A stretch of DNA of 64,000 bases from Amyloporia xantha (lineage: Eukaryota; Basidiomycota; Agaricomycetes; Polyporales; Adustoporiaceae), in NCBI GenBank assembly GCA_036971615.1, contig JAYKKR010000011.1, positions 124,001-188,000 of the forward strand, in the 5' to 3' direction. Below are positions 31,996 to 60,730 of the stretch, piece by piece. Made by a program: the position numbers and the translations under genes. Position 1 is the stretch's first letter. Each line of letters begins with the position of its first letter. The notes below the pieces were generated by a model. That model was not told where the DNA came from. It ran no database searches and saw nothing but the letters and a program-made list of their open reading frames with translations.

Positions 31996-33220
31996 CTACT
32001 TTGGACCACCATCCTCGTCCTCATCCGGTGAGGGACACCCATCCACCCACAGCCTTCTCTCTACTTCGGAAATCGTCCTTGCTGTCCTCCTTGTTCTCAG
32101 TAGCTGCTGAATCCCCCGCACCAGAAAGAGGATGTCCTCGAGCGCCTCAATGTCGCGGTTGACCGCGATCAACTGCTCGCGAGAGTGTCTGCGCACATCG
32201 CGAACGTAAGTGGCCTCCCTCACAGAAGGAAACCCTATGTGAAGATAAATAGCCTGTTAGGATAAACTGCAAGATTACACACCTTGTCCAACAGTCTCCT
32301 TTATGTAGCTATATCGAGCGGGGTCAGAAACAGAAGGCGGGCGCGCGACAGCGTCGTCACGCGGCAAGGGTCTCCGAGCCTCAGTCGCGGGTGCAACATT
32401 GGATTCCTCTTCGTTATGTGTGATTTCAATCGAGATTTGTTCTTTGAGAGTGTTCCAATCTTTCTTACCTTTGCGTTTTCCTTTCGCGTCTGCGTTGGCA
32501 CGCGCAATATCATCCAGCGCGTCATTCGAATCGACATTAACGACATCGTTCAGGTCGATCGGAGAACGCGCGCGAGCATGCTCCTCTGCATTATATGAGT
32601 GGTAGTACTTGTAGTACTTGTGCCATAGCTGTTATTTCAGACATACCTCCATTACTGAGGTCACCGCTATCCTGATTGAACATGTCTGCCAGGTCCACCG
32701 GTGATCGGTCACGAAGAACGGCTCCTACATGAAGCAAGTTAAAACAAGCTGGGCAAACAATTCCCCTCACTCACTATTGTGAGCTACATAGTCGCCAGCG
32801 GGAGGAATGTCAGTATCCTGATCGAGGATGTCGAGCTCAATGGGGCTCCGAGAGCGTTCGGAGACTTCGCGCGGATGTTAGATGAGATCACAACATCGAG
32901 CGACCCGAAACATTACCTGGCTCGAGATCAAATATTTCCACATCAATCGGGACCGCGCGCGGGTGTTCATGTTGTTGTCTTGGAGCGCCGAATCGACGCC
33001 TTTGAGATTTAGGTGAAATGGACGAAAGAAGCTCCCGAAATGGGGCTGGAAATGGCTCTACTTACCAGTGTTCGATTCCAGGTCGCTAGATTCCGACATG
33101 AATGCGTCGAGGGTCACCGGAGATCGTTCTCGATCAAACACAGCTACAAAACATCAGTATCAGTCATGCGCGAGACGCGTACTCACAGTTATCTATGTCA
33201 GAGTCCATCGCCCGCGCCAT
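31996..33220 (-). CDS. Gene A: protein of repeated RSPIDL-motif exons
   Basis: Spliced by phase, the gene starts at ATG 33220 (exon 33220-33187) and continues with a series of small exons separated by about 45-65 nt introns. Exon 33143-33066 encodes RERSPVTLDAFMSESSDLE. Exon 32999-32917 encodes AVPIDVEIFDLEP. The next encodes RSRSPIELDILDQDTDIPP, the next RDRSPVDLADMFNQDSGDL, and the last begins RARSPIDLNDVVNVDSNDA. All junctions are phase 1, so each exon is a duplicable module carrying R-x-R-S-P-[IV]-x-L plus an acidic tail. After the repeats come a KGKRKGKKDW basic patch and, beyond one more intron near 32230-32280, a helical end (RDVRRHSREQLIAVNRDIEA) stopping at 31996. The motif resembles PxDL-type corepressor-binding or SUMO-interacting peptides, but that is inference. 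One exon is a base short. A paralogue, gene B, lies at 60016 in opposite orientation. Confidence 0.65.
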
Positions 33221-33472
33221 TTGTCCGCGCGAGATGAGGTCGGTTGGGAAGACGAGACACTGAGTGGAATACGACAGTCGCGATCAATGCAGATTGCTCA
33301 CGATCGCCGCGAAAACGTGACGAGTTGATCGAGCGCTGCTGACATAACCCGTAACGCATTCAGTTCCTCGAAGGTCGCGCGCATCAAAGTCAGTTCTAAC
33401 CTCCATCTCCTCCATAACCAGCTATTCACCTGATTCACTATCTCCGTTTCATCTTCAGTCCTCTCCCACAGC
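33221..33472. promoter_or_regulatory. Divergent promoter region between gene A and P1
   Basis: About 250 bp separate the start codons of gene A (minus) and P1 (plus), so both promoters must lie here. The paralogous pair P2/B has the same arrangement with about 355 bp between starts. I see no clear TATA box. Confidence 0.5.
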
Positions 33473-36310: not shown

Positions 36311-36449
36311 AGTAGCCGCTGTAGTTTTAGCATATACGTATCGCCCAGCCGCAACAGAATGGGACTTCAACAGTCCCACATGAAATATATTAGCTAACTC
36401 AATCTTTACAAGTCGTGTGATTGTAAACGACGCAACTGCATAGGTGAGG

Positions 36450-36761: not shown

Positions 36762-37331
36762 TGTCGCGACTTAGAGTCAAGCGACAGGGGAAGAACAAAC
36801 TTAAAAGGCCGAGGGCGTTCGACTGGGTCTTACCGAAGCGATGACGAGCTATGCTCAAGTCTAAGGCTAGGGACAAGATAAATAGATGTAAGTAAAGGTA
36901 AGTATGTACAGGCAGGCTTTGGCTTACCTAGGGACAAGAGGTCGAAACTGAAGTCCCCAGGCAGAGGCGTACTACTTATATACTACAAGAGTTCAGGGCA
37001 GGCTATCTACATGGTCCGTGCGCAGGTGGTCTGTGCGCAGCCTGAGTAAGCAGGCTATGAGTCATAAGTGATGTCGTGAGCGGAGCCCGGCGGGGCCCGT
37101 GGTCGGCCGGCACCGTGCTTAAGTAAATGTCCGTAAAGGGAAGGCGGGACGGAGTCCGTGGGAAGGGAACATGTGACCTGTAATGGTCGACGCGTCTAAG
37201 TTCATGAACAAGGAGCTTGTGATGTGTACAGTAGAATGGCCGTTCGAATAAGAGGGGAAAATAACGATGAGTAAAAGGGGAAAATCGTCCGTATATAGAA
37301 AGGAAGAAACGCTCGATGTCAACTCGTGACA
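36762..37331 (-). repeat. 3' LTR of the gypsy element
   Basis: This 570 bp LTR matches 43058-43627. In the transcribed (minus) direction it starts TGTCACGAGTTGAC and ends GTCGCGACA. A TATATAAG lies at 36974-36982. Confidence 0.97.
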
Positions 37332-37345
37332 GTACCCCCCTCCTA
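37332..37345 (-). other. Polypurine tract of the gypsy element
   Basis: On the minus strand, TTAGGAGGGGGGTAC directly precedes the 3' LTR. This is the expected position and composition of the plus-strand DNA primer. Confidence 0.8.
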
Positions 37346-39943
37346 ACGCCGCATGACCTCATGCGCGCTTCCTTTCCCCATCTCCCAACCCGAACGGCAA
37401 CGTGCTTCGGTCATTGCTTCAGGAAGTGGACGAAACTGCAAGCCAGCAAAGATAGCGGCATTGAGTCGACGAGGCGCACTAGGGTGTCTACGATGGAAGA
37501 TCTCGATGAGTTCTTTCGCGTTTGCAACGTTACGCGCCGGTTCCCAAGACGTATGGGACTCATCGTATCCCTTCCATTTGACGAGGTACTGAAGCTGGCG
37601 GCGGAATATTCGTGAATCCTTGATTCGCTCAACTTCGTACTCGTCTTCACCTTCGACCTCAATAGGTGGCGGTTCGTCCGGTTCTCGACCCGGGATCTCA
37701 CTACGCGTATGTTTGCTGAGCAAGGAGACGTGGAAGACCGGATGAACTGGCACCGATTTGGGCAACTTCAGTTCATAGTCTAAATCGCCGACCTTCCGTG
37801 TGACAGGGAAGGGACCAAGGCGTTTGGGACTTAGCTTTTTGCTCGGCTGTTTCAGCTTCAGATTACGAGCGTCCAGCCACACCTTGTCACCAGGTTTGAA
37901 CACCGGTGCCTCCTGCACATGCCTATCGTAGTACGTTTTCATACGCTCAGCAGACAGCTCGAGCGCAGCGCGCGTGTCATCCCGTACTTCCTGCAACAAT
38001 TTTAACCTTTCTTCTGCAGCGGGCACCTTCGACATGGGGTTCAAGCGGATTTGGAGATCGGGGTTATACGCCTGGTTCAAGAAGAAAGGGGAATAGCCAG
38101 TTGCAGAGTGAACTCGATTGTTCAGTGCAAACTCTGCAAAAGGCAACTGTTTCGCCCAATCATCCTGGCGATGGCTGACATAAGCCCTAAGGTACTGCTC
38201 GACCTCCTGATTCCACCGCTCCGTCTGCCCGTCTGTCTGAGGGTGAAAGGCAGTCGACATGGCTGGTTCGATATTCATCCCCTCGTAGATCGCATGCAGA
38301 TACTTTGACGCGAATTGGGGACCTCGGTCTGATATGACCTTGGCCGGGGCCCCATGATGTGAAAAGACATCGCGTATGTAAAGTTCCGCAGCACCTTCGG
38401 CGGTCAGAGTCTCATGACATGCCGAGAAGTGCACCATCTTGGTGAAGCGATCTGCCGTGACCAGGATTGAATCAAACCCATCGGACTTCGGAAGACCCAC
38501 GATCATATCAGTGGTGATAACCTGCCAAGGACGCTCCGGAATCTCATTCGGCTTGAGCGGTCCCTGTGGTTTAGCGGGGAATGTCTTGGTACGGTTGCAT
38601 GTGTCGCAGGTGCTTACGTACTCGTTGACGAACTTGGACATTCCCGGCCACCAATAGTTTCGTGATACTAACTCGAGGGTCTTGGCCCGACCAGGGTGAC
38701 CAGCTGCAGGCGCATCGTGGTGGATTTTGACGATATCACGCCGAAGTTCTGCATTTTTTGGGACATAGACGCATCCTCGAAATAGCAGAAGTCCTTGCTC
38801 GGCATTCCACTCTGTGAAGTCACGCTGCAGGCGGGGCGGGCCTAGATTCTGAATCTTTTCCAAGGCATCCGCCACCTCCCGGTCCTTGTCTGAACATTCT
38901 CGAATGCGCTTCAGCAGCGATCGATCTGCCACAACTGCTGCATGCCCACGCTGCGTGGAGGAAATGCGGAACTGTTCCGGCTTCAGGACAATCTGATCCA
39001 CGTTGTCATCGTCATCTCCAACCTGGAGGTCCGGGCGACGAGACAAGGCGTCAGCCTTTCCATTCGACTTGCCCGACTTGTGAGTGATGGTGAAATCGAA
39101 GCGGGACAGATATAGAGCCCATCTCGCTTGTCGTCGTGTGAGATGCTGAGCTGTGCGCCAATACTCGAGGTTCTTATGATCCGAAAGGATCTCGAACGTG
39201 TTAGGACAACCCTCGAGGTAGTGACGCCAGTCCTCCAAAGCTTCGATTATCGCTAGCATCTCCTTGTCGTAGATCTCGTAATTACGTTGGGCGGAATCCA
39301 TGCCCCGAGATCGGTAAGCCACCGGATGCCACTTGCCATCCTCCTGCTTTTGCGAAAGTACGCCACCGGTTGCGTACCCAGAGGCATCTACCTCTAGCCG
39401 CGTTTCCCGGTCTTGGTCATACAGTGCTAAGACAGGTGTGGTGCTAAAGCAGCGTTTCAGCTCCTCGAATGCAGACTGCTCTTCCTCACCCCACTGCCAG
39501 GGTACGTTCCCAGTTAGACGATCAAGGGGTTGCGTGATCTTTGCAAAATCCTTGATGAAGCGACGATAGAAGTTGGCAAACCCTCGGAACTTCTGGATGT
39601 CTTTAACATTCCGAGGGGTGGGCCACTCCATGACTCCGCGGATCTTTGCAGGATCCATCGCCACTTCACCATTCCCTACGATCATGCCTAAGTAGTCTGT
39701 TTTAGGAACGTCCCACTCGCACTTCTCCGGTTTCAGAAAGAGATCATTTTTCTGAAGGCGACGTAATACTTCACGGGTAACTTTCTCATGCTCCAGCTTA
39801 TCCGTGGAGAAGATGAGAATGTCGTCGAGGTAGACCGTGAGTTTTCCTTCTGCAATGAGATCTCCAAAGATGTCATTCATCATTGCTTGGAAGGTCGCAG
39901 GAGAATTGGTGAGACCGAAGAACATAACCGATGGTTCGTACAA
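37343..39943 (-). CDS. Gypsy Pol, part 2: reverse transcriptase, RNase H, integrase, chromodomain
   Basis: The frame opens inside reverse transcriptase at YEPSVMFFGLTNSPATFQ and carries the YLDDIL catalytic motif. RNase H follows (LEVDASGYATGGVL, YEIYDKEMLAIIEAL, LSDHKNLEYW, KADALSRRP). The integrase zinc-binding HHCC lies at HHDAPAAGHPGR to CDTCNRT. Its catalytic core follows, with D in TTDMIVGLP, D in VISDRGPQF and E in GQTERWNQEVEQYL. After a GPFPVTRKV tail domain, a C-terminal chromodomain (YEVERIKDSR, YLVKWKGY, SWEPA) would target insertion to marked chromatin. About 865 codons. It is joined to part 1 only if one base is missing in the given sequence near 39944, where the coding frame jumps from AAFVTNRG to LYEPSVMFFG. 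Confidence 0.95.
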   Translation of the reverse strand: MYEPSVMFFGLTNSPATFQAMMNDIFGDLIAEGKLTVYLDDILIFSTDKLEHEKVTREVLRRLQKNDLFLKPEKCEWDVPKTDYLGMIVGNGEVAMDPAKIRGVMEWPTPRNVKDIQKFRGFANFYRRFIKDFAKITQPLDRLTGNVPWQWGEEEQSAFEELKRCFSTTPVLALYDQDRETRLEVDASGYATGGVLSQKQEDGKWHPVAYRSRGMDSAQRNYEIYDKEMLAIIEALEDWRHYLEGCPNTFEILSDHKNLEYWRTAQHLTRRQARWALYLSRFDFTITHKSGKSNGKADALSRRPDLQVGDDDDNVDQIVLKPEQFRISSTQRGHAAVVADRSLLKRIRECSDKDREVADALEKIQNLGPPRLQRDFTEWNAEQGLLLFRGCVYVPKNAELRRDIVKIHHDAPAAGHPGRAKTLELVSRNYWWPGMSKFVNEYVSTCDTCNRTKTFPAKPQGPLKPNEIPERPWQVITTDMIVGLPKSDGFDSILVTADRFTKMVHFSACHETLTAEGAAELYIRDVFSHHGAPAKVISDRGPQFASKYLHAIYEGMNIEPAMSTAFHPQTDGQTERWNQEVEQYLRAYVSHRQDDWAKQLPFAEFALNNRVHSATGYSPFFLNQAYNPDLQIRLNPMSKVPAAEERLKLLQEVRDDTRAALELSAERMKTYYDRHVQEAPVFKPGDKVWLDARNLKLKQPSKKLSPKRLGPFPVTRKVGDLDYELKLPKSVPVHPVFHVSLLSKHTRSEIPGREPDEPPPIEVEGEDEYEVERIKDSRIFRRQLQYLVKWKGYDESHTSWEPARNVANAKELIEIFHRRHPSAPRRLNAAIFAGLQFRPLPEAMTEARCRSGWEMGKGSAHEVMRR

Positions 39944-41442
39944 CCTCGATTAGTTACAAACGCAGCCTTCCATTCGTCTCCGAGTTTGATCCGTACGTTA
40001 TTATACCCCCATCGGATGTCGAACTTGGTAAAGATCGAGGCGCCTTTGAGTTTGTCGACAAGTTCCGAGATCAAGGGCAGTGGGTAACGATTTTTGACCG
40101 TGATCTCATTAAGCCGTCGGTAGTCCTGTACGGGTCGAAGTGATCCATCCTTCTTTTTGATGAAGAAGAAGGGAGAGGATATGGGCGACTTCGATTCCCG
40201 TATATAACCTTTGGCCAACTGTTCTTTAAGGAACTTGTCTAACTCGCCTTGTTCGTTGTGCGACAGTGGGTATACCCTCGAATGGAACGTTTTTGCGTCA
40301 GGAATCAGCTCTATAGCATGATCATAAGGCTTATGCTCTGGAAGTCGTTCCGAGGCTTCTTTGGAGAAGACCTTCAAGAACTCGTGAAACTTTTCCGGCA
40401 CCATTTCCTCGACGCTTTTGACCTCTCGCTTCTTGTACTCCTCTTCAGCAAGGACTTGTGAATAGGTATGTCCTGCTGCGACATACAGTTGTGGAGCACC
40501 AGGGAGGTTGACACCACGCTCCCAGGCTTCAAGAAGGTCGTCTTCGTTCCATTCGACCGTTGGATCCAACTCTGATTCCTCCTCAGGCGATACCTTACTA
40601 CGTACCTTACCCTTGGTTGACCATTTGGCTTTCCGCAAACGTCTCTGCGCCGTGGGCCTGTCCCCCGTATCACGCGTAGACGCTGCATGTTCCGTCTGGC
40701 CAACCTGCCGGGCTTGACACGCTTCAGGACACCTATCTAATTGGAACGAGCCACTTTCCCAATCGATGTTAGGATTATGCTCGCGAAGCCAATCGAGCCC
40801 GATTATGACGTCTTCAGGTCCGATGTCTGTTACCGTAAATACCATCTTCTCGATATGGTCTCCTATCTGCATCTGTAGCACAGCTACGTCTGTGATGCTT
40901 CCGTTTTTGTTGAGCGATCCGTCGATGTTATACAGTGGAATGGGGCGCCCCAACTTCCGTGTTCGTACGTTGTTCTCTTTTACGAACCGCTCGTGAATAA
41001 ACTTCGTGGTGGCACCGCTGTCCACCATGGCGATTACGTCTTTCTGCCGTTTTTCGCCGATTATCCGTACTGGAATATGAAAATGCTGCGAACCATGATC
41101 TATTTCATATACATTTGCAGATTGTAGTACAGAAAACCGATTCGAGGAGGGCCCAGCGCGCACGGCAGCGAGCGTGGACCGGATCAAAAACGCTCCTCTT
41201 TCATCGCGCGATACTGCCCCAGTTCCTCCCGCATGGACTTCACCTCGTTGGCCAACGCAGACACAGACGCTAACATAGCCGAGAGATCTCCCGGTGTCTG
41301 CTGCACAACTTGTGCCTGTTCGGGCTGAGCGCTTGGCGTTGCTGCGCTTGCAGCAACCGTAGCTCGCACACCCTGGCGCGGAGTGTAAGGTTTGTCCTTG
41401 CAGGATGGACAGTCCTTCCGACGATACCCCGGCTTCCCACAA
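39880..41442 (-). CDS. Gypsy Pol, part 1: protease and N-terminal reverse transcriptase
   Basis: The protease active site is MVDSGATTKFIHERF at about residue 140. The linker to RT holds EFLKVFSKEASERLP. RT begins with EQLAKGYIRESKSPISSPFF, FIKKKDGSLRPVQDYRRLN and the first catalytic aspartate in FTKFDIRWGYNNVRIK. The frame overlaps the end of gag in a different register, so Pol is presumably made by frameshifting or from a fused reading. The first 80 or so codons upstream of GAFLIRSTLAAVRA are probably just the overlap with gag. The frame terminates early because of the one-base break near 39944. In intact relatives it would continue into part 2. Confidence 0.9.
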   Translation of the reverse strand: MWEAGVSSEGLSILQGQTLHSAPGCASYGCCKRSNAKRSARTGTSCAADTGRSLGYVSVCVCVGQRGEVHAGGTGAVSRDERGAFLIRSTLAAVRAGPSSNRFSVLQSANVYEIDHGSQHFHIPVRIIGEKRQKDVIAMVDSGATTKFIHERFVKENNVRTRKLGRPIPLYNIDGSLNKNGSITDVAVLQMQIGDHIEKMVFTVTDIGPEDVIIGLDWLREHNPNIDWESGSFQLDRCPEACQARQVGQTEHAASTRDTGDRPTAQRRLRKAKWSTKGKVRSKVSPEEESELDPTVEWNEDDLLEAWERGVNLPGAPQLYVAAGHTYSQVLAEEEYKKREVKSVEEMVPEKFHEFLKVFSKEASERLPEHKPYDHAIELIPDAKTFHSRVYPLSHNEQGELDKFLKEQLAKGYIRESKSPISSPFFFIKKKDGSLRPVQDYRRLNEITVKNRYPLPLISELVDKLKGASIFTKFDIRWGYNNVRIKLGDEWKAAFVTNRGCTNHRLCSSVSPILLRPSKQ

Positions 41443-42683
41443 CCATAACAGGAGCCGTTGAACTTCCCATCGCCAACAGCCGCGATAGTAGAAGAAGAAG
41501 CGGCGGTCTGTTGGCGACCTTGTGACGTACGAGCCCCACCACGAGCGAACATATTGAGATCCGGACGGCGCGCGCGGCTTATGTCGAGGATCTGTTCGAC
41601 GGCGAGGACTCGTTTCTCGGCACTGACCCAGTCGTCGAAGGGCTCGAGCTCAATTTTGCGGTAGATGCGCGAGGGGATACCGCTAAGGTACTTGTCACGG
41701 AGTTCTAGCTTTCCGTAGCCGGAACGGTCCGCCGGACCCTTGAATTGAGCGGAGAACTGTGCGGCAGTTCTCGAGTCGCGCAAGTTACGAGCGCAGATTT
41801 TGGTGAGCTCGACTTGTGCGGCGGCTGCGTCATCGATATGTCCGAAGCGGGCGGTGAAGGCATCGGTGAAGGCTTTACGCGTGGCGAAAGGGGTGCGGCC
41901 AGCGACGTAGTCCGCCAGGAAAGGAGTGCCCCATTCGCGGGCTTTTCCGTCAAGAAGACTGATCGCGACCTGGACCTGTAGCTTGACGGAAGCTAGGTCC
42001 GTATTGTAGTCGAGATACTCCGAGAGTTGGGCGAGGTACCGTTTACATTCCACAACGCTCTCGCCATCGTAGCGTTGGGGAAGGAGAAGCTTCGCAATGC
42101 CTTTGTCTACAGCCATTACCGTCGCGGGGGAGGTCGTAGTTTGCTGTAAGGGCGGAGGCGGTGGTTGTTGCTGCGAAGCGGTCGTGTGACGCGGGGTAGG
42201 ACGGGTGGTTTGACGGCCGCGCGGCGCCGACGACGGGGCGGAGGTGACGGGCTGAGATACGACAGGGACTGTCGGCTGCGTAGACTCGGACTGCGCGACT
42301 CCTCTTTGGGTTCCCGCAGGTGGATTCGCTCGCGAGACAGGGGGAGTAGGGAGATGGGAGACTCCTCCTTCTTGACTTTGGCTGCGGCTAACGCTGCCGC
42401 CAGGTCGAGGAATAGATGAGCCAGGGGTGGCAGGTCGAGAGGGAGCGGGGGTGGTGTGTCGTGAGAGTGAAGCGTGCTCGCTCCTTGGTCCTGCGGGGTG
42501 TTGGACACGCCGGATGGGAACAAACCGATTATTCGGGGAGGGCTCAGTGATGGAGCGCGGGGTTCGATTTGGACACGGTTGTCGGGGACAGTCGAACCAG
42601 TTGTTTTCCTCGAAGTAACAGTCGGTTTGGTCCTGGGTGTCGAAGGCGTGAACGAGTCCGTGACAGTGGAGTTCTTCTGCCAC
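41184..42683 (-). CDS. Gypsy Gag with altered zinc knuckle
   Basis: The 499-codon frame has a disordered Pro/Thr/Ser-rich N-terminal third. A Ty3-type capsid domain follows (LLLPQRYDGESVVECKRYLA, AREWGTPFL, FTARFGHIDDAAAAQ, LRDKYLSGIPSRI), then a nucleocapsid knuckle, and a C-terminal short coiled coil (LANEVKSMREELGQYRAM). The knuckle reads CYGCGKPGYRRKDC. Its spacing is C-x2-C-x4-Y-x4-C, so the zinc-binding His of the CCHC consensus is replaced by Tyr. That could weaken RNA packaging or be a mutation in this copy. The start at 42683 leaves a leader of about 370 nt after the 5' LTR. Confidence 0.92.
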   Translation of the reverse strand: MAEELHCHGLVHAFDTQDQTDCYFEENNWFDCPRQPCPNRTPRSITEPSPNNRFVPIRRVQHPAGPRSEHASLSRHTTPAPSRPATPGSSIPRPGGSVSRSQSQEGGVSHLPTPPVSRANPPAGTQRGVAQSESTQPTVPVVSQPVTSAPSSAPRGRQTTRPTPRHTTASQQQPPPPPLQQTTTSPATVMAVDKGIAKLLLPQRYDGESVVECKRYLAQLSEYLDYNTDLASVKLQVQVAISLLDGKAREWGTPFLADYVAGRTPFATRKAFTDAFTARFGHIDDAAAAQVELTKICARNLRDSRTAAQFSAQFKGPADRSGYGKLELRDKYLSGIPSRIYRKIELEPFDDWVSAEKRVLAVEQILDISRARRPDLNMFARGGARTSQGRQQTAASSSTIAAVGDGKFNGSCYGCGKPGYRRKDCPSCKDKPYTPRQGVRATVAASAATPSAQPEQAQVVQQTPGDLSAMLASVSALANEVKSMREELGQYRAMKEERF

Positions 42684-43057
42684 GATGGAGGGAGGAAGGG
42701 GAGGTGCGCGTACGTAAAGAAGACCGTTTGACTACGTATCTACGGCGCCCAAGAGAACCCCGAGTGGTTCGCAATTCACGTGGGACCCAGTACAGCCTTT
42801 GATTATTTCGCTGCAGGAATCTAGACCACGCGTTGGTCAACCCAACAAGAGACGCCCACTGAAGTGCAGCCTCTGAAAGCTCGTTCCACTGCGAGGTGGC
42901 GATGTGTCTACGTGCGGGGGATGGCGACACGAGCACCGAGTTCCCGACTTTGTATCGTAACGGTAATCGAAGTATAGTAAAGGTGCGCACCACCCAACCT
43001 ATAGAAAGGGATAATGGAAAGTGTGAACGCCGGCGGCGATGGGGAGTTTCGACCTAA

Positions 43058-43627
43058 TGTCGCGACTTAGAGTCAAGCGACAGGGGAAGAACAAACTTAA
43101 AAGGCCGAGGGCGTTCGACTGGGTCTTACCGAAGCGATGACGAGCTATGCTCAAGTCTAAGGCTAGGGACAAGATAAATAGATGTAAGTAAAGGTAAGTA
43201 TGTACAGGCAGGCTTTGGCTTACCTAGGGACAAGAGGTCGAAACTGAAGTCCCCAGGCAGAGGCGTACTACTTATATACTACAAGAGTTCAGGGCAGGCT
43301 ATCTACATGGTCCGTGCGCAGGTGGTCTGTGCGCAGCCTGAGTAAGCAGGCTATGAGTCATAAGTGATGTCGTGAGCGGAGCCCGGCGGGGCCCGTGGTC
43401 GGCCGGCACCGTGCTTAAGTAAATGTCCGTAAAGGGAAGGCGGGACGGAGTCCGTGGGAAGGGAACATGTGACCTGTAATGGTCGACGCGTCTAAGTTCA
43501 TGAACAAGGAGCTTGTGATGTGTACAGTAGAATGGCCGTTCGAATAAGAGGGGAAAATAACGATGAGTAAAAGGGGAAAATCGTCCGTATATAGAAAGGA
43601 AGAAACGCTCGATGTCAACTCGTGACA
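43058..43627 (-). repeat. 5' LTR of the gypsy element
   Basis: This 570 bp LTR shows no visible difference from 36762-37331. It should carry the promoter for the minus-strand transcript. Confidence 0.97.
43270..43278 (-). promoter_or_regulatory. Candidate TATA box in the 5' LTR
   Basis: The minus strand reads TATATAAGT in the middle of the LTR, the usual place for the U3 promoter. The same sequence is in the 3' LTR. Confidence 0.5.
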
Positions 43628-43632
43628 CATTC

Positions 43633-43974: not shown

Positions 43975-44719
43975 TCAGGGAACCTCCTCCCGAATTGCAT
44001 ACAGCACGCGCGTGCCCTCGCATTGCCTCCCTCCTGCAGCGAGCATTCTGGCCGCAATGTATTGGCCGCCTTCGGAGTGGTCAATCGTGATTTTGACTTG
44101 ATCCGCCTCTGCGGTCTCCCTGTCGATGAGCTCCTGAAAATTGCAATGTCAGAACAACGAGGACAATGTGATATTTGAAACACATGAACCTACCAATGTA
44201 GGTGAATCCCACCACTCCGGATTGTCGTCGTCGCGGTCGGGCCACTCCCACCAGATTGTGTCGAGGTGGTGCTCCGAGGATAGGATTTCCTCAGGAGGCG
44301 GCGCCACTTTATACGCGATTGGTACCGCGGCCAGCTTGTGAATGTCGAGGTCCCACTCGACATCGAACCGTGTGTGCGCGACCGCGGCATGGATAATCTG
44401 CGGCAACCTCACCTCCTTCCCCAGCGGGCGAGCACAATCTCGCCAAGGTTCGCAAGACTGTCGCGCTGTGTGTGGTTAATCAGCGCGATGAGCTCAACTT
44501 GTCAATGATAGTGACTAACGAGTTCTTTGATAAGGGCGACCTTCCAGCGATCATACTGGAGGTCCGTCCGGGGAGATCACCGGATGCAATCCGTTCATTG
44601 AGCCTCCGTATGGCCTGCTCCATCCGCCACGCGCGGTAGCGGAACATGCGGGTCGCGGTCTTCTCGAGTTGATGGGCGGATGCTTGGGCAGACATTTGAG
44701 CCGGGAGGACAGAAGACAT
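43975..44719 (-). CDS. W1: small W-rich protein of unknown function (copy 1)
   Basis: Start MSSVLPAQMSAQASAHQLE at 44719. An N-terminal helix carries MFRYRAWRMEQAIRRLNERI and SGDLP. After an intron (about 44518-44455) comes IIHAAVAHTRFDVEWDLDI and then the signature SSEHHLDTIWWEWPDRDDD followed by NPEWWDSP. A second intron (near 44200-44140) leads to the C-terminus (QVKITIDHSEGGQYIAARML), stop at 43975. The clustered Trp and Asp residues are unlike any family I can name. A one-base frame break occurs near 44575, after SGDLP. The gene has a tandem paralogue, W2, 1.5 kb away, and both stand next to the KDZ/TET genes, so they may be passengers of that element. Confidence 0.55.
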
Positions 44720-44799
44720 TGCGAAATGGGAAGAGGGTGAAATGAAGATGGAGCCCTGCCCCCGCACACCTCGCCGAATATTTAGCATCTCCCACCTGG

Positions 44800-45084
44800 T
44801 CACCTCGTGGCCAAAGTGGTTCCCATACACGTGTCAACCGCGCGTTCGCGAAGCAGGGGAGGAAGAGCGGTGATGCGCATGAGAAGCAGCGACATGTCAC
44901 AAAAGGCCTTGGGCTTGGGCAGATGACCTGCCTGCAGGCTTCGCTGCAACTGTCCCAACTCGGTAATAAGATTACTTTGGCGCGGATGGTTCGCGGCAAT
45001 CCAAAAGGGTAAAAGCGGCGCCGCGAGGTCTTGAGGATATATTCGATAAGAGTTGCCATGATGCGCGCACTCCCCGCCGATCAT
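44800..45084 (-). CDS. X1: small hypothetical protein, 94 codons
   Basis: An open frame from ATG 45084 starts MIGGECAHHGNSYRIYPQDL, then LAAPLLPFWIAANHP, a helical middle and the end ALPPLLRERAVDTCMGTTLATR. The last 25 residues recur in the decayed copy X2 (VLRDLAVHTWVGITLATR) at the same distance from W2. That conservation supports a real gene, or an upstream exon of W1. Function is unknown. Confidence 0.45.
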   Translation of the reverse strand: MIGGECAHHGNSYRIYPQDLAAPLLPFWIAANHPRQSNLITELGQLQRSLQAGHLPKPKAFCDMSLLLMRITALPPLLRERAVDTCMGTTLATR

Positions 45085-45458
45085 CGCAGAAGCGACCGCG
45101 CCAAATGCGCGTTGAGTCGTGAGTGCGACTTATGGATCTGATAATCATTGCGAAGCTCGGCGTATGAATGTGCGTCATGTCAGGCACTTCATGAACATTC
45201 TCTGATGTCCATGAACATGCTCGGCAAATGCTGTGCATGCTATTGTCCCCGATGTGTACGGAATTCGCTATAGGCTCGGCGAAACGCGGTCGTCCATCGC
45301 TCTGACCGCGACCAATGGCCGCGAGCTCACCGCTGATGTGAGAGTTGGGACGTACGGCCCGCCTTCGTGCTATGCATTCCAACGATCCTCAATCTCATGG
45401 ACACCGGGTGATCTTGCAACAACATTGTATTGAGACGCGAGAAAATACAACAGACGTG
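45085..45458. other. Spacer between the duplicated X-W units
   Basis: A 136-codon minus-strand frame crosses this spacer, but it does not resemble the sequence upstream of X2, so I do not call it. The region may hold the X1 promoter and an upstream exon. Confidence 0.3.
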
Positions 45459-46221: not shown

Positions 46222-46302
46222 GGCAGGGAACAAAGATGAGAGCGATTGAACTGGGGCGCTGCCTCCACACACTTCGTCGAATATTTAGCATATCGCACCT
46301 AG

Positions 46303-49500: not shown

Positions 49501-50043
49501 GATGATGTCGCGGTGGTGAACAAAACAGTGAATGAGAACGCGCGGATATACACCCAGGCGCGGCGCGCGATGGAAGGTCTTGGAGCAAGTCCCGCGACAC
49601 TGCAGAAGTATCAGCGCTTGGTCCGCGAAAATCTCAGATCCATCACAGCACTCATGGATAATTCCCTTCGCGGAACCCGCAACACTGGTCTCTCCTGGAT
49701 TTGGACAGTAGACTTGCATGGAGATGGTGCACACTCAAATTGGATGGCAGAGTGTAAGTCTGACATTTAATTCCGATGACTCTTGCTAACCTCACAATCA
49801 GTGCACCGAGTGAATTGGCTGAGAGCACGCGCGCGCCGCGACAGATGGCAAGAGGAGTACACCATTCTGGTCGCGGAGATGGGGTGGACAGAAGTCAGCT
49901 TCCGTAAACGCGCGCATGCATGGTGGTCGCGCGGAAACGTCCCGTACATTGGCCCGGGCCACAAGTGCTATGCCCTGCGACAAGCCGCGATGTACAATTC
50001 CTTGGGAGACGCGCTCAGTGCGCTTTGTGCGACATGTAAATAG
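46479..50043 (+). CDS. KDZ transposase with CxC2 cysteine cluster
   Basis: N-terminal basic leader MKPRPRGTIITVGRGVRYG. The CxC2 cluster is next (CTRCHSAEGDWRCLECYGC, CQECCQISH, then IWLGHQGKQC). The KDZ core follows: VVDVTGVHEIGVGWCSC, PRTAFTFRVLDDFLLTNKE, the first catalytic Asp in RSVVMDGNFSAEHLR, RHGCFVPHAVVDFQKGE, the second in LLVMYDIMCQYSKRLHIR, then HGHQDSCFPRYSPNFIEGAG and the Glu in GEVIETLWAPLNNISGSTRG. A MSTAHRKEVIDDHMNDSNW helix and a long coiled-coil tail follow, ending ALRQAAMYNSLGDAL and a stop at 50043. Introns are 46736-46782, 47453-47509, 47692-47744, 47908-47969, 48116-48169, 48561-48614, a GC-AG intron near 48810-48859, and more. One-base frame breaks lie near 47195, 48222 (a G5 run), 49055 and 49243, and exon 1 ends in a TAA before its donor. 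It is therefore dead as written, or the assembly has indels. The enzyme would move DNA-type KDZ elements. Confidence 0.93.
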
Positions 50044-50123: not shown

Positions 50124-51380
50124 CTATTTGTAGTACGATGTTTCCATCCAATGAGGTGCAGCCACTCCCATTGCGGTGTGGATAGCGTCTCGCATGAAAT
50201 ATGCATAACATACGCGATCCCCTTGACACGGCGGAACAGCATGCCGCAGCACCTTGCCACATAGCGCAATCACAGATCCCGGTGGGTAATGGACTGTCAG
50301 TCCAGGTCCGTCCATCTCGAAATGGAGGTCGCGGTAGGAGCCGAATGTCGCGAGGAGGTCATACCACGGCTTCCTCGAGTTGCTGTCGCGGTGGCGCGGT
50401 GTCTCGCGGTTGGATATTATCTGGACCGCGTTGAACGGTGTCGCCCATCCCTGCATGCTGTCCCTCAACGATGGGTCCTGCATCCAATCTACGCATGGTT
50501 TCGCGACCCGCCGCGTATAATGCGGGATGAACTACTGCTAGGACCGCAGATAGGATAGCGGAAGTCTCCGCGATCGCAGCCATCCATTGCCGCCCGCTCA
50601 CCAAGTTGGCGCCTTGCAGACTCGCGGATGCATTGAGCGCATGTGGAGGCCCCTGCAAATAATGTTTATTCCATTATTTCCTCCTGGCAGACATCATCAA
50701 CTCACTACATGACCCTGCTGATACCATGCCGGGGATATATTCACACATCCTGGTGGTATTGAACATGTGGCTGGGTCGCGGAAAAGACTTCCCATCTGAC
50801 GCCAACCCTTGGCATTTGCTCGCGGCCCACTATGCCTGAGCTGCTGAGTTAGAACTCCTGTCGCGATGTCCATTTCACTCTGACCTCGATGTGTCAGTTT
50901 AGTGTATCCACACAAGAGGTCTACCAAGTGAATACCTGACGTTGCGGTGATAATAAAGCGGGAAGGAACCAACCGATGATGCGGTCATGCGCGTCGGTCA
51001 GAATCGACGGCTGGTTAATACACATAACCTTGTCTGGAAGTATGCGCGCCCACTTTGCTTTCAACGCGTCTTCCAGCTTGGTGTTCTGGCCGTTCGCTTG
51101 CAACCCTAAAGCATCCGAGTATCTGTCAACATCCCAAGGGATGCGAACTGGCCAGACATGAGCAAAGATTTACACTCCGAAGCAGAATTGTTACGAAACC
51201 ACGATGAAGGAATGCGCGCGCCAGTTGGTCGGCAATCGCGCTGCATTCGCCGACAAGATACGTGCTAATATTCAACGCCACAGGAGGTGGCGGTGCCACA
51301 CCGACATCGTGTCTCAGCAGGTGCAGTCTTCTACGGAACATGACTTGCATGAAAGCCGCAAGCTCGTCCGTCAAATCCAT
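50124..51380 (-). CDS. TET/JBP-type 2-oxoglutarate/Fe(II) DNA dioxygenase
   Basis: The family oxidises 5-methylcytosine or thymine in DNA. ATG 51380 starts MDLTDELAAFMQVMF. Several short introns separate exons with KLEDALKAKWARILPDK, ATCSIPPGCVNISPAWY, and HALNASASLQGANLVSGRQW. The catalytic core is WATPFNAVQIISNRE, then HRDSNSRKPWYDLLATFGSY with the iron-binding H-x-D. LTVHYPPGSVIALCGKVLRH follows with the distal iron-binding His, and GDRVCYAYFMRD with the arginine expected to hold 2-oxoglutarate. The protein ends WMETSYYK at 50124. All active-site residues are present. One frame break is seen, at a CC pair near 50484 between TMRRL and MQDPSLRDS. The junction of the first two exons is also unsettled. 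The gene is convergent with the KDZ transposase, the partnership reported for basidiomycete KDZ transposons and TET/JBP genes. Confidence 0.85.
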
Positions 51381-51830
51381 GTTTGCTAACTGTAAACTGC
51401 TCGCGGACCTTCAGGACACCGGTCGCGGTTGTGTCTCGATGCTCACCCAAATTCCTTCCGTGCGTGATATCGCGCGCAAGCTTTGTAGCGTCCCCGCCCA
51501 AGTTCGCAGAACAACTAGGACATCGGGACCACGCGGTTCCAGCATGTATGTCCTCATGACGACCACATCCCTGTTTAGATCTCATATTGGACCCGGCGCG
51601 GATGTCCGGAACTCAGCGATTCGGTGACCAATCATAGCGCAATGATATTAGGCCCCGCAGTTGGATGTGACTGTCGCGGTCAGTCGACATGAAACTGCAA
51701 TCCGCTTTGGGACTGGTCGCGGTTCGTGAGTTGAGGAGCGCCTGGCAAAGCGCTTCCAATTCCACAACAGGAACTTGTCACTAAATTTCAACACTCATCT
51801 GCTCACGCGACAAACCATAAAACGAACAGT
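51381..51830. promoter_or_regulatory. Divergent intergenic region between the TET gene and Q
   Basis: About 450 bp lie between the starts of the dioxygenase (-) and gene Q (+). Minus-strand frames here do not continue the dioxygenase. Promoters for both genes are expected. No specific box is identified. Confidence 0.4.
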
Positions 51831-54800
51831 ATGAGTCTTAAAGGCATCCACACCAGCTCTTTAGGTGATGAGCTCGAGCTTTTCAAGCCTGCGGACAGGA
51901 ACGCGCGCAAAAACATCATCGACACGACCTTGATAAAATTACAGGGAGAGCATGCGACTCTTGCAAAGCAGGACAAAGGTCAGTGATGTCAGTTATAGTG
52001 GATAATCTTCTTTACACTTTGTACACTTTTTTGTCTAATCTACCCCATACCTGAGTGCTTCACACTCTTTAATCCTCTGGATTATCCCAAGATTTCCCCC
52101 ACTGTCAGGCTACCTTCATTATGCAGGATCATCCAGAGGATAAGCCTGAGAATAATCCAGAAGATTATCTAGAAGATAATCCAGAGGATTATCCAGGAAA
52201 AGAAATCAATTATGACACCAGCAGGGATTGAACCCCAGAATTCCCACATTTCCATAATAGGCAAGTAGACAGGCAACCTTACCACTACACCATAAGTCCT
52301 TGTATATAGGTCTAAGGTTTAGTCAATATATACTATAGTCTCCCCAAGGGATGCTATATATCTGGACTTCAACAAATTTTGACTTATTGGCTGTTTCTGT
52401 ATTGAGCCATATACAGCTAGATTGTGCCTGGATTAAGCTAAGTCAAGAAGCTGGATTAGCTCTTCTTCTATAAAATCTAATCCAGCTGTATATGGCTCAA
52501 TACAGAAACAGCCAATAAGTCAAAATTTGTTGAAGTCCAGATATATAGCATCCCTTGGGGAGACTATAGTATATATTGACTAAACCTTAGACCTATATAC
52601 AAGGACTTATGGTGTAGTGGTAAGGTTGCCTGTCTACTTGCCTATTATGGAAATGTGGGAATTCTGGGGTTCAATCCCTGCTGGTGTCATAATTGATTTC
52701 TTTTCCTGGATAATCCTCTGGATTATCTTCTAGATAATCTTCTGGATTATTCTCAGGCTTATCCTCTGGATGATCCTGCATAATGAAGGTAGCCTGACAG
52801 TGGGGGAAATCTTGGGATAATCCAGAGGATTAAAGAGTGTGAAGCACTCAGGTATGGGGTAGATTAGACAAAAAAGTGTACAAAGTGTAAAGAAGATTAT
52901 CCACTATAAATGACAAAGATGCAAAGGTGGCTTACGACGTGTATGTTGGCTGCAATTCTCTGCGCAACGAAGGCTGACAATAGGGTAGCAACTCTCGGCA
53001 TGGTTTCGCAACGGTGCTCGAGGCAGCGGGCGAAAGAAGCCAATGAGATGGGGGCGGAAAAGATCAGGCCCTGAGCAATTCGGGCTTGAGAACAGAGAAC
53101 TCGTTAAGGCGGCTTCGAAGGAGATCACGAATGGAGACGGTATAGGCAACAAGAATATCGGCGCGTGGCCAGCCGCGCAAGCTCGGCTTTGGAAGGCACT
53201 CAGCGCAGATGAGCAAGCTGGATATATCGCGAGGGCGAATGCCCCGTCTGAGGCCAAGCGGCCTGCAAGCTTGCCGTCGCGGAAGTATGTGCCTCTCCGT
53301 TTCGGTCGCGCGCGTCGGAGCTAAAAGTTGTATAGAGTCATTCAAAGGAAACTGGTGCAGCGCCTCAAAGCATTTACGACTCAAATCTATTGTGACTACG
53401 GTGTACGAATGGTCACGTTTTCCGCGGTTCAAGTGGGACCTGAGGAAATCTTGGTGGATACGTGAGGTTGTACTTTGGCGCGACAATTTAATACTGACAT
53501 GCATAACAGGCACGATTACAATAAAGATTTAGAAGGGGCACCCCCATTCACAGACATGCCTAACTGGGATGAAGACACACAAACCCAATTCGGATTATAC
53601 AGTCGCAATGTGTTCCTGGATGGAGTGGTAGCAGATCAGTCACAAAGTGCAGCCATGAGGAAGGTGCGAATAAGGGAAGCCATGGACGTGGATGCGGAAG
53701 GCCTTCCGCTGATTCCAGTGCCAAAGGCAGATGAAGGCCGCGAGAAGCTGGACGACTTGAAAGCCATGCTCCGCGAGTTCCTGAACATTCATTTTCGTGA
53801 GCTCGTATTTCCGCTTGCACACGTGGTCTCTAACGTTTTGGCAGAGGCCGCGACCGGCAACGCAAAAGCCCGCGCGCCGTGGACCCATATCACGCAGAAT
53901 CCGTCGCTTTATTTCGAAGACGAAATGACGCCGGACGGGATGGGTCTGCGCGATCCTTCGCACATGACGGATGGACCCCTCCAGGAGCTTGCTACAATAC
54001 TGGCGCGACCGACAAGTAACCAACGGCGGCCACTCTCCCTTCCGGTTCAAGGCGTATATGGTCAAGCGCGATGATGCCGGCGATGCGATAATGGCGCGGG
54101 CCGAATACAGCGAGGCCTATATCGAGGAGCGGAAGAAGCCCGCGCGAAAGCATAAAAAGAACAAAGGGAAGGCGAGCAAGAAGGCGCGAGGAAAGCGCCC
54201 TGCCCGCGCAGTCCCCGGACGCGGTCGTGATGATGACTCTGAAGATGATGAGGTTGATCGCGACTTTGGAGACGAGAGCGACGATGCCTCCGGTGATGAG
54301 AATGACCCCCTACTCATTTGCGAGAAGCCAACAAACTGGGCTTTGAAATCGCGGACACGTCGAGACAAGTTCCTCATGGCAATTGGAACGGGCGAGGTCT
54401 ATTTTGAAGTGGTTCACAATTTGCAGAACTTTATGGTGAGTGGCGCGCGGTCTCATATCATACCGCGACTAACCCTGAATCTGCAGCGCGGCACTAAACC
54501 TGTTCCCCAGCCACTGTGCCAACAGGGCTGGACGTCTTGGGAGTATACGGAAAGATACCTCCCGCCGCATGTGCACAGTGATCCGAATGGGCTCGACGAG
54601 ATCCTCCAATGGATGGATGATGCACCTTATCTGGATGAAGAAGGTAACCTCCCGCGCGATAGCGCCGGGTACAGCGATCATTGAGCAGTTCATTCTCATC
54701 GCGGGACTAATCACGCGCGAGTTTGACGTTGTTCAATTTGGGTGGGAGGAAGAGGAGGACGCCGCACAGTCAGGCATTCCTGCACATGTCGTCGGCACAC

Positions 54801-56491
54801 AGATCGACTTTATGGACGTGGTCAATCGAATCGACCCAATGCTGAGGCTCCTCTGTGACGTAATGAGGGAGTCGGAGGCGCAGGCAGCTGCCCTGCCCGC
54901 GGCACACACGCTCACCACTGGTGGAGAATCATCGCGGTCCAATACGGTGCAACCGCCATCACCTAACATTTCGAGCGGTGACAAAGGTGGCAAATCTCAG
55001 GATGCAAGGTTCACAGATTCAGGAGCTACTGAAGAGCCTACCGCGGGATCCTCCACACAGCGCGAGCACCTTCACCATGAAGGAAAGTTGGGTCGCGAGG
55101 ACGCGCGACAGTCCTTCTCCGCGCGACAGTCCTGGAGACCGCGATCAAGGGGAAGGCAGCCTCGAAGATGCCGATGACGATTCCAAGTTGAGACAGCTCA
55201 ATGAACACCTAGCAGCGACACAGAGGGCGCTAGATGCTATGAAGAAGTCGAAAGAGACGGCCAAGGCTGCCGTTCGAGCAAAACCTCCACCTGTTGCGAA
55301 GAAACAGCTCGCGCGTGTAGATCCGGACAACGCGCAAGGGATTCAGGAGGCCCGTGCCTCGAATATAAAAGGACAACCAGAGCGGGACAGAGCGGGAGGA
55401 ACTGGCTATAATGAAAGAGAAGGAAAGGTTACAAAGGGAGGCCGAAGACGACCGGGCATGGGCGGAGGGATTAGCGCGAGAGGCGGCCAAAAAGGAGCGC
55501 GCTGCTGCACACCAGAAGAAGGTCGCGTCCCGCGCGTTGAAAGAGCAAGAGATGGATAAGCAAACAAAACAAAAGGCTGTCGACCACATCGCGCGGATCA
55601 ATTTGGATCGTCAAGCCATGAAGGAGAAAGCCATTGAGGACAAGCGGGCGCGCGTGGCCCTCGCGCAGGCGGGCCCTTCGCGACCCCCTCAAGAAGCAGC
55701 GGTGCCAGGGGCAGGTGGGCAACTGAATGCAGACTCCAATGCCATGGTTCCGACCAAGCGGACTGCAGCTCAGGGCCCTGGAGAAGCGCGGCTCGCCTTG
55801 CTTAACAAAGTGCGAGACCGTCTTGGGAGCCAGCCGCCTGTCGCGGCAACCATAAAGCCCACCACCCAAACTGCACCGCCCGCGCTGGGAGGAATGGAGT
55901 GGCGTACAGCTGTCGCGGGGCCAAGTGTGGCGCGGCCCGCGTCCTCAGCCGCGACCGCGATATCAAGGGGCCAGCCACGAGAATACTGCTGGCCCGTCAT
56001 CCATGTATGTTGATAGAACTCACGGTTCAAGCGACAAGGACAGTACCAAATCCGACGAGGATGGGTCACCTTCGCGACCTGCTCCCGGCGCATGGACGAG
56101 GGCCAAGGCGCAGAAAGAAAAGCAGGCCATGCTTCAAGCGCCTACAGGAGGATCCGTGTCAGATGCGATAGGACAGCCGCGTGCGACACGCGCAACGACG
56201 CGGAAACAGGATAAGACTGGGAAAGGTGATGCAAGGCCAGATAGCCAAGACGGTCAGGTGAAATCCAATGCAAGTCCTGCCAAGCGCGTGCCCGCGCAAG
56301 CACGCGCGCGTGCTACGGTTCGCGCCACCGGCCGCGCGAGAGGTCGCGGTCGCGGTGCCGGGGGCAGAACGCCTGCTTTGCCCGCTCTCGAGGAGGAGGA
56401 TGAGGAGGACGAGGGGAAAGATTCAGAGGAAGATGATAATCCTCGTCCTAGGAAAGTGGCCAAACGTGGCCATGGACAAAGAAGAAGATGA
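51831..56491 (+). CDS. Q: large charged, probably nuclear protein of unknown function
   Basis: Exon 1 (51831-51978) starts MSLKGIHTSSLGDELELFKP and ends at a GTCAGT donor beside the SINE foldback. The gene resumes near 53022 with RSGPEQFGLENRELVKAASK and an HMG-like helix (ARLWKALSADEQAGYIARA). A conserved block follows: FTDMPNWDEDTQTQFGLYSR, DDLKAMLREFLNIHFRELVF, YWRDRQVTNGGHSPFRFKAY. Next come basic and acidic runs (RKKPARKHKKNKGKASKKA, DEVDRDFGDESDDASGDEN), then PTNWALKSRTRRDKF and WEYTERYLPPHVH. The second half is low-complexity coiled coil (KERLQREAEDDRAWAEGL) and a Gly/Arg/Ala-rich tail with EEEDEEDEGKDSEED and KVAKRGHGQRRR, stop at 56491. Nuclear targeting is inferred. I recognise the general agaricomycete family but not its function. 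A one-base break near 53985 separates LQELAT from LLQYWRDRQ. Exon borders are approximate. Confidence 0.6.
52218..52304 (-). ncRNA. tRNA-like Pol III head of the minus-oriented SINE copy
   Basis: This is the mirror copy of the tRNA-like head, with boxes at 52282-52292 (A) and 52225-52233 (B) on the minus strand. The two heads would transcribe toward each other's outer flanks and yield complementary RNA. Confidence 0.7.
52604..52690 (+). ncRNA. tRNA-like Pol III head of the plus-oriented SINE copy
   Basis: A and B boxes match the consensus TRGYNNARNGG and GWTCRANNC at tRNA-like spacing (about 48 bp between them). The T arm is readable, but the anticodon arm does not fold convincingly, so this is a SINE head and not a functional tRNA gene. 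Confidence 0.7.
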
Positions 56492-56882
56492 GGCCTGTGA
56501 TACCCATGCAAGGCGCAGCGGCGTCACGCGGTCGCGGTTGTCCAGTGTCAGTTGCTGAGTCGCGGTTATTTAGTGGCGATTGTTGAGTCGCGGACGAGTT
56601 TTGACCAGATATCTTAGAAGGCACCCGATAAGTATTGCCTGTGGCGTCTGCTGTCTTATTTGTGATGTTCCACCTAATGGGCAATCTAATGCATTGTAAT
56701 TCCAGACCTGTACAGACTTGTGTTAATCAGAGACTATTGCTCCACTCTTTCACAACTTGAGTCGCGCGCAGAAATTGGACTGGAATTATAATCATTTATA
56801 TAGTAGTTTTTGGGACTGTTGAAGTCCCATGCGCTCGCGAGACTATGGTATGTACATCTAAATATTCGTCGTAAAAAGAAAT
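56492..56882. other. Convergent spacer between Q and P2
   Basis: No gene is seen. A short imperfect repeat GTTGCTGAGTCGCGG / TTGTTGAGTCGCGG occurs at about 56551-56595. The P2 frame can stay open to 56734 in another register, but similarity to P1 ends earlier. Confidence 0.4.
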
Positions 56883-59661: not shown

Positions 59662-60015
59662 TTTCAGTGAGAAGCGAGGTTAGAAAAGCGAGAGAGGCTG
59701 GAGTGGCGGTGATGGTAAGAGGAAGACAGAATGAACTTGGACGCGCGCGACCTTCAAGTGCTGAACGGGTTGCGGGTTATGTCAGCAACGCGTCAACGCG
59801 CGCTCAGGTGATCGCCGATTTTCGATCGTCTTGTCACGTGGGCGCCTGAATCGATCGCGACCTCCTATCCCAAGTCAACTGCTACGCGTCTTTGTACTCT
59901 CATCCAGTCTTTCCGCTGCAAGTAGGTGCTAATACAAATTCCTGTGCAATGTTCATAAGCTCATGAAAACAACTTAGCATTCCCACCTCGTCGCGACCAC
60001 AAACACCGCGATCGA
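59662..60015. promoter_or_regulatory. Divergent promoter region between P2 and gene B
   Basis: About 355 bp separate the two start codons. The layout mirrors the A/P1 gap. No clear promoter element is identified. Confidence 0.45.
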
Positions 60016-60730
60016 TGAACATGGACATGGAGAACCGTGAGGACCTCGTCCACAGCTGTGATGAGTACTGACAACCCATAGGCAAATCCAATCGAAGGCG
60101 CGCACAGATCTCCCCGACGTGCTCATGTCTGAGGCCCGCGGAACTCTTATGACTAGAGGTGAGTACAGTGATCGCGATCTCCACTTTGTGGCTGATGTTA
60201 ATACGACTGATTTCCGATCTTGAAGACCGCGATTCAGTGCCCCGAGACGAGAACTCGGGTGGCCGCGCACGCACCCCGATTGATTTGGATTTTTTGATTT
60301 GGATCCAGGTATGTCCTCATATCCACATGGAATGGGCACTTATCTAGCATTGGCGTGAAGATTTGAACCGCGCGCGAACCCCAATCGACCTCGACCGCGA
60401 CCTCGACCTCCACCGCGACCTCGACCGCGACCTCGACCTGGACCGCGACCTCCGCGACCTTGACTTCGACCGCGACCTCGACCTTGACCGCGACCTCCGC
60501 GACCTCGACTTCGACCGCGACTTCGACCTCGACGTGCCCGACGCGGCCGCGGGAATTGTTCCAACTCACAACAATATTGTCCATCAGAGTGTGTGAGGAA
60601 GTTCCTCTTTTGGATTGAACTGATATTGATTGTAGCATTCTACCGTGACCGCTCACCTGTCGGCCTAAAAAGCGTGTTGAAGGAGGCTATGGAGGTTATG
60701 GAACGCCATGGGAGTGAAGGCAAGTGTGTT
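60016..60730 (+). pseudogene. Gene B: 3'-truncated paralogue of gene A
   Basis: The exon series matches gene A one for one. Start MNMDMEN at 60016. A second exon holds ISPDVLMSEARGTLM-like sequence. A third (from 60226) has GRARTPIDLD and ends in a DLDP block. A fourth (from 60362) has NRARTPIDLD, expanded by a DRDLDLD repeat, and ends DVPDAAAGIVPTHNN. A fifth (from about 60647) carries YRDRSPVGLKSVLKEAMEVM. Junctions are phase 1 as in gene A. One-base breaks sit in a C4 run near 60100 and in a T6 run near 60291. The 3' exons of gene A (RSPIDLN exon and helical tail) are missing, because the palindromic element begins at about 60790. Confidence 0.6.
60385..60540 (+). repeat. CGCGACCTCGAC coding repeat
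   Basis: Tandem and interrupted copies of CGCGACCTCGAC within an exon of gene B encode alternating Arg-Asp-Leu-Asp, an extremely regular charged stretch. Gene A lacks this expansion. Confidence 0.9.

Follow-up and report, generated by a model that had tools for sequence, protein, structure and literature searches.

TET/JBP genes are established as components of KDZ transposons (Kojima 2025, PMC12730594, citing Iyer et al. 2014). The same source gives TET+ Kyakuja elements with 7-bp duplications, reports CA..TG ends without terminal inverted repeats (TIRs) for two Laccaria families, and describes the function of TET in such transposons as being without experimental validation. Why fungal transposons carry TET/JBP, and how the action of such an enzyme could be confined to the element instead of reaching genome-wide, is the question addressed here with a 64,000-nucleotide stretch of DNA from Amyloporia xantha (the window, C3:124001-188000). 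A block of the window holding a KDZ transposase gene and a TET/JBP gene is, with near certainty, one copy of a large, TET/JBP-bearing DNA transposon of the KDZ superfamily. Two mirrored gene pairs in this block, A/P1 and P2/B, are its two end modules, with a divergent A-P pair inside each terminus, P reading inward and A outward. The best explanation of the whole, which is judged probable, is a TET/JBP-carrying KDZ transposon with end modules, its P proteins acting on arrays of a short motif at the element ends. A candidate DNA-binding partner near the ends, motif arrays, and an assembly that contains both the insertion and the matching empty site make the question directly testable.

Like Kyakuja (PMC12730594), the element combines KDZ and TET/JBP in one mobile unit, is associated with 7-bp duplications, and has one terminus starting with CA. 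Unlike Kyakuja, its termini are CACACC...GGGCTC and form inverted repeats (76–95% identity over 100 nt in four copies); as CA..TG ends without TIRs were not found, it is therefore called a TET+ KDZ, Kyakuja-like element. For Kyakuja, the portion of the main text covered and the legends of PMC12730594 make no mention of A, P, Q or W genes or of end arrays. KDZ1-KDZ3 of Cryptococcus neoformans (PMC12810828) are likewise large KDZ transposons with TIRs, but differ in length (9.2–11 kb), TIRs (139–241 bp) and duplications (4–8 bp), and the covered part of that text leaves TET/JBP and an A-P module unmentioned. TIR motifs of KDZ elements are reported in a paper on Marasmius oreades, and a paper on Pleurotus MSH4 places a CxC2 cysteine-cluster region ahead of all intact KDZ transposons there. 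TET+ KDZ elements are known already; the window subfamily (S1) is a variant of these with mirrored A-P end modules.

A bounded insertion with mirrored end modules

The sequence-only reading had placed paralogous pairs, A/P1 and P2/B, in mirror order around the KDZ and TET/JBP genes, and this arrangement was borne out. A repeat scan of the window returned inverted repeats between P1 and P2 (33462-33540/59594-59672, 33632-33700/59434-59502 and 35910-35988/57203-57281), and a P1 (C60) and a P2 (C25) that are both intact over exons 1-2 are 69% identical there. A and B are each a series of short exons in which the motif R-[ST]-P-[IV]-x-L recurs, and the last exon of A recovers that of B at 60% identity.

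A further proposal was that the pairs stand at the two ends of a mobile unit enclosing KDZ/TET, and the boundaries agree with it. Genome-wide searches covered the 46.8-Mb assembly of 60 contigs (C1, C3 and so on), and the unit is bounded by window position 30866 on the left and 66484 on the right (C3:190484), the right end lying 2.5 kb outside the window. On the KDZ side homology sets in abruptly at CACACCTTTCAGTC (window 30866), and on the TET side it does so at GAGCCCGTTCAGTC. These sharp ends are common to all seven window-subfamily copies with ends compared (six copies against one another at both termini and against the left end of the window copy, whose right end was compared with three of them). 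Matching 7-bp duplications flank five of the seven (window, TGCTGGA; C22, AACACGC; C60, TCAACAG; C26, ATCAGAG; C25b, CAAAACC), and such duplications were also found in one copy each of two other subfamilies (C12 and C1: CATAATC and CTGGCCG). The two ends of copy C22, that on the TET side being GAGCCC..., form a TIR with 76% identity over 100 nt. A PF18758 domain, a bounded unit, terminal inverted repeats and a target duplication place the element among the KDZ-superfamily DNA transposons, and the TET/JBP gene sits inside the complete transposon (30866-66484), which is therefore a TET+ transposon in the sense of Kojima 2025. As a side observation, TAGCATG is the flank of copy C41 on the KDZ side and of copy C25a on the TET side, and the joined flanks of these two copies cross the junction in related repeats (C22:374717-375027, 89%). 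The sharing of flanks reflects either an exchange between the two copies or mis-assembly within near-identical 24-kb repeats.

Comparison with an allele lacking the insertion had been suggested as a check, and a probe joining 200 bases of the left flank, including one TGCTGGA, to 200 bases of the right flank was searched against the genome. The site C12:3073252-3073651 matches the probe at 400/400 bases with a single TGCTGGA, the other matches being the two flanks from which the probe was built and, at 74–75%, three related sites. The window flanks match C12 at 99.8% over 2,452 nt and 99.7% over 1,510 nt, meeting exactly at the junction, and the C12 match resumes at the same offset 6.5 to 8.5 kb further left of the window element. 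At the insertion site C12 and C3 are either alleles or a recent duplication; whichever applies, the element has inserted cleanly. For copy C22, an equivalent joined-flank search of this genome did not find an empty site.

Genome-wide pairing and the origin of mirroring

The counts that follow come from six-frame searches and are lower bounds for one genome, the assembly being possibly chimeric within 24-kb repeats. A search with P exon 2 gave 113 rows, merged to 105 loci. A scatter of P and A homologues away from KDZ/TET loci had been named as the outcome that would speak against an association, and in this genome it was not seen: a TET match lies ahead of P within 12 kb at 84 of the 105 loci (behind P at 5) and within 20 kb at 94 (behind P at 19), while the fraction of the genome within 12 kb of a TET match is ~5.5%. 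Extended to 30 kb on either side, 98 of the 105 loci have a TET match and seven have none. The suggestion of a composite mobile unit stood in that the unit is mobile and fell in that it does not consist of two mobile units. The modules lie inside the termini of a single transposon, P loci that are this close to TET do not show modules moving alone, and the scanned pieces of A, B and P returned no transposase match.

The last exon of A gave 50 rows, merged to 43 loci, of which 40 have A divergent to P within 2.5 kb; one of the three exceptions is the window's B, parted from P2 by a nested TIR element. The 35 S1 P loci resolve into 15 adjacent inward-facing pairs (ten spaced at 17.7–17.9 kb, five longer) and five singles, which were taken as 20 elements in all. 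Contig ends are close to two of these singles, and the missing partner of the single at C12:2.47 Mb was recovered by a zinc-cluster search. Each pair comprises one KDZ-side P1 and one TET-side P2 (15/15 heterotypic by label), the labels having been assigned by hand and then checked by DNA identity and by A/B-type exons. The 29 P loci that were fetched sort into P1 and P2 classes by DNA identity in agreement with the labels, and 14 of the 15 pairs have an A-type last exon (94–100% to A) on one side and a B-type (44–62%) on the other, the fifteenth (C51) lacking one last exon. The pair in the window is not a chance arrangement, because inward-facing pairs recur 15 times in the genome and nearly all A loci (40/43) are divergent to P.

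How often inverted pairing occurs at KDZ/TET loci had been put forward as a check; it holds for the 15 pairs of S1 and does not extend to the copies read of three other subfamilies. S2, S3 and S4, each represented by one copy read through (Table 1), have P at the TET-side end only, with none detectable at the KDZ-side end. In S4 A adjoins P, and in S2 and S3 the last-exon search found no A exon, so that A is absent or too diverged there. Mirroring is, as far as the copies were read, a trait of the S1 subfamily, and the idea that mirrored pairs mark TET/KDZ loci in general was rejected on the one-ended P of these three copies. S2 and S3 carry the CACACC terminus on the TET side, as S4 probably does too, judging by homology. 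S1 carries it on the KDZ side, so that the S1 interior is flipped relative to the termini. The second S1 module would have arisen by duplication of the A-P module onto the other end, with this flip of the interior.

A different origin, by fusion of two different elements that each brought its own A-P module, rather than by internal duplication, is a plausible alternative that falls somewhat short of an even chance. It would account for the two terminus types (CACACC and GAGCCC) and for the swapped KDZ and TET sides between S1 and S2/S3 (S4 by homology), and the synonymous divergence between P1 and P2 (dS > 1) points the same way. The exon 2 identities speak against it: they amount to 73% between P1 and P2 but to 57% between P2 and the S4 protein, the order that a duplication in the S1 lineage would give.

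P proteins and the arrays at the element ends

In P, an N-terminal domain is followed by a basic/acidic linker and then by a cluster of six cysteines, and the protein ends in a coiled coil. The cysteine spacing is C-X2-C-X6-C-X8/9-C-X2-C-X6-C, and the six cysteines are invariant in 5/5 proteins from four subfamilies. Zn2Cys6 proteins read CGG triplets and CGG-type sites. P is like the fungal Zn2Cys6 regulators in its cysteine spacing followed by a coiled coil, and in the CGG-type sites at the element ends; unlike them, it falls below the Zn_clus cut-off and has ~350 residues of other sequence before the cluster. Zn_clus is the commonest Pfam match for P (four of five members at E up to 10; best E 0.02). 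The N-terminal domain has no Pfam match, and the predicted structure of the exon-2 domain (mean predicted local distance difference test, pLDDT, 69) has no PDB match at E ≤ 0.001. A protein database search with the full P2 gave one match, 95% identical over 58%, which comes from a metagenome contig of 2.3 kb. P1 and P2 were long under constraint, because their ratio of nonsynonymous to synonymous divergence (dN/dS) is low at dS > 1 (0.20 over exons 1-2 and 0.25 over the zinc cluster).

Both S1 ends hold tandem arrays, in which the repeated unit is 166 nt long on the KDZ side and 86 nt long on the TET side. TCGGCC was counted on either strand in the left 1.1 kb, the right 1.1 kb and the whole interior of one copy per subfamily, giving 7/15/6 in S1, 22/23/5 in S2, 13/18/7 in S3 and 6/10/8 in S4, with at most three in each sampled interior 1.1-kb stretch. 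Of the sites of the full palindrome CGGCCG, the terminal 1.4 kb holds 16 of 23 in S1, 29 of 31 in S2 and 13 of 17 in S4 (Fisher p from 6e-12 to 2e-30, too small in that tandem copies were taken as independent), and in the S1, S2 and S3 copies each terminus has one such palindrome at a distance of ~82 nt. There is no clear loss of CpG (observed/expected 0.90–1.34 at the ends, 0.92–1.09 in the interior and 0.82 in the host flank; one copy per subfamily).

From these features P may be an element-encoded zinc-cluster DNA-binding protein, dimeric through its coiled coil, that would bind the TCGGCC arrays at both element ends and would recruit the KDZ transposase and/or TET/JBP to these CpG-containing ends. 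Such recruitment could keep the ends unmethylated and usable. For P as an end-array-binding recruiter, the chances are judged about evenly balanced. A more specific version, in which P would deliver the element's own TET/JBP to the TCGGCC ends and erase silencing on the element alone, with the mirrored pair giving each end a specialised P, is considered rather unlikely.

The closest described parallel is VANC of the Arabidopsis VANDAL elements, which binds a short motif in its own element's tandem repeats and causes hypomethylation (PMC5735166). Both systems have an element-encoded protein together with a short motif arrayed in the element's own tandem repeats, and the variable, repeat-rich parts of the VANC protein can be compared with the repeated exons of gene A (PMC5735166). 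They differ in that VANDAL elements are from plants, with binding and hypomethylation measured (PMC5735166), whereas here both are proposed and a TET enzyme lies within the unit. By this analogy the P system may be comparable to plant VANC anti-silencing. Among the papers listed from the open-access literature, by title and opening lines of the abstract, none on zinc-cluster proteins in KDZ elements was found. PMC9765290 contains zinc-cluster and KDZ terms in unrelated places, and in the one paper returned for Zn2Cys6 together with CGGCCG the latter is only a primer sequence.

Several observations weigh against an end-bounded transposon whose two P proteins act on its arrays. Two of the seven S1 copies (C41 and C25a) are without a matching duplication. 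The Zn_clus matches of P stay below the Pfam cut-off, and a PDB search lists one zinc-cluster protein, LAC9, at E 5.9 only. The array units are tandem duplicates, so that the site counts are not independent, and the S3 arrays retain TCGGCC rather than the full CGGCCG palindrome, which is not enriched in S3. The coiled-coil part of P1 and P2 (the rest of the last exon) is looser, at dN/dS 0.43. At the 29 S1 loci examined out of 35, 10 of 12 P1 but only 4 of 17 P2 have clean exons 1-2; the P1 genes of the window and of C22, which lie beyond these 29, are also frameshifted. When read to the end, the P1 of the window, of C22 and of C60 each require a frame change in the acidic linker. Several P2 frameshifts are common to copies at different sites, so that copies without an intact P2 have moved, and P2, hence the mirrored arrangement, may not be needed or may be provided in trans. 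Mere sequencing error was rejected for those shifts that recur in several copies at different places.

P could instead be an accessory of transposition only, pairing the two ends for the KDZ transposase through the arrays without a link to TET or methylation, an alternative held to be possible, at a likelihood clearly below one half. TnpA of En/Spm is a comparable end-pairing accessory. The gathering of TCGGCC sites at both ends, the CGGCCG near both termini in S1, S2 and S3, and the presence of P in all four subfamilies examined fit such a role, while TET/JBP in the same unit and the CpGs in the motif count against it; none of these points decides between the roles.

It is improbable that the A-P modules are passengers, that is, long diverged terminal inverted repeats with captured host genes that serve no function for the element. 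P2 is not clean in 13 of the 17 loci examined and P is one-ended in three subfamilies (one copy each), as might be expected of passengers, but P1-P2 dN/dS of 0.20–0.25 over dS > 1, the retention of P with invariant cysteines in four subfamilies, and the one P1 and one P2 kept in each pair argue otherwise. A host locus with an inverted duplication, later hit by KDZ/TET transposons, has nothing in its favour beyond the paralogy itself and is ruled out to a negligible residue by the P and A genes lying inside the target duplications, by the empty site without the modules, and by the 15 pairs across the genome.

Gene content, nested insertions and decay

The features of the window element, and the copies of the other subfamilies, are collected in Table 1. 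Scanned pieces of A, B, P, Q and W had nothing above the Pfam cut-off, and the cysteine-rich piece upstream in the KDZ gene was without a Pfam match.

Table 1. Features of the TET+ KDZ element in window numbering, with copies of subfamilies S2 to S4
Feature	Position	Strand	Description
Left target-site duplication TGCTGGA	30859..30865	.	single TGCTGGA at empty site C12:3073252-3073651
KDZ-side terminus	30866..30965	+	starts CACACCTTTCAGTCA; imperfect terminal inverted repeat
Subterminal array	31055..31638	.	166-nt units with CGGCCG sites; repeat scan; enrichment measured on C22
Gene A	31996..33221	-	series of short exons with recurring R-[ST]-P-[IV]-x-L, and last exon; divergent to P1
Gene P1	33473..36310	+	N-terminal domain, basic/acidic linker, Zn2Cys6-spaced cluster (34750-34974), coiled coil; frameshifted
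Nested Ty3/gypsy-type long terminal repeat (LTR) retroelement	36762..43627	-	570-nt identical LTRs; inside transposon
W genes	44186..46528	-	tandemly duplicated gene
KDZ transposase gene	46765..49767	+	upstream cysteine/histidine-rich part; PF18758 E 1.4e-28 at 48026-48601
TET/JBP dioxygenase gene	50127..51410	-	core exon 50127-50673; PF12851 E 2.3e-14 at 50127-50531
Gene Q	51871..56583	+	long acidic/basic protein; C22 reading frames mapped to window; foldback insert interrupts
Nested foldback (palindromic) element	51981..52913	.	437-nt arms, 55-nt loop, near-perfect palindrome
Gene P2	56886..59661	-	TET-side paralogue of P1, facing inward; frameshifted in window
Gene B (paralogue of A)	60019..60741, resumes at 64048	+	last exon C3:188476-188679, 0.5 kb past window
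Nested TIR element	60742..64047 (window part 60742..64000)	.	139-nt inverted ends; splits gene B
Right target-site duplication TGCTGGA	66485-66491 = C3:190485-190491, outside window	.	matches left copy
S2 copy	C12:238277-256295		18,019 bp
S3 copy	C1:1236759-1254678		17,920 bp
S4 copy	C10		about 18.1 kb

The unit had been put at about 29 kb, which does not hold: the window copy measures 35.6 kb (35,619 bp) because it includes three nested insertions, a sister copy without them (C22:165798-189605) measures 23.8 kb (23,808 bp), and the ends lie outside the interval first given to the unit. The C22 blocks match the window at 99.2–99.6% (arrays apart), which sets off the three inserts of the window copy. 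Compared with other copies, the window P1, P2 and TET are frameshifted, the last of these relative to C22, and the window block is a complete but decayed copy of the transposon.

The two LTRs of the Ty3/gypsy-type retroelement are identical, and its insertion into the transposon is therefore recent; its pol reading frame shifts frame in the reverse transcriptase region. The foldback element is multi-copy, with paired arms also at, for example, C55, C6, C2 and C16. The inverted ends of the nested TIR element (60742-64047) are 88% complementary, with long low-complexity tandem-repeat frames inside. Nesting may also occur elsewhere, as an S4 element (P at 190662) at C31:166979-204085 appears by coordinates to be nested in an S1 element, the S1 pair being stretched to 36.9 kb. 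Across the 46.8 Mb of the assembly there are 114 TET/JBP and 174 KDZ exon-level matches. Outside the element, the window holds a tandem repeat with a 58-nt period at 11894-12456.

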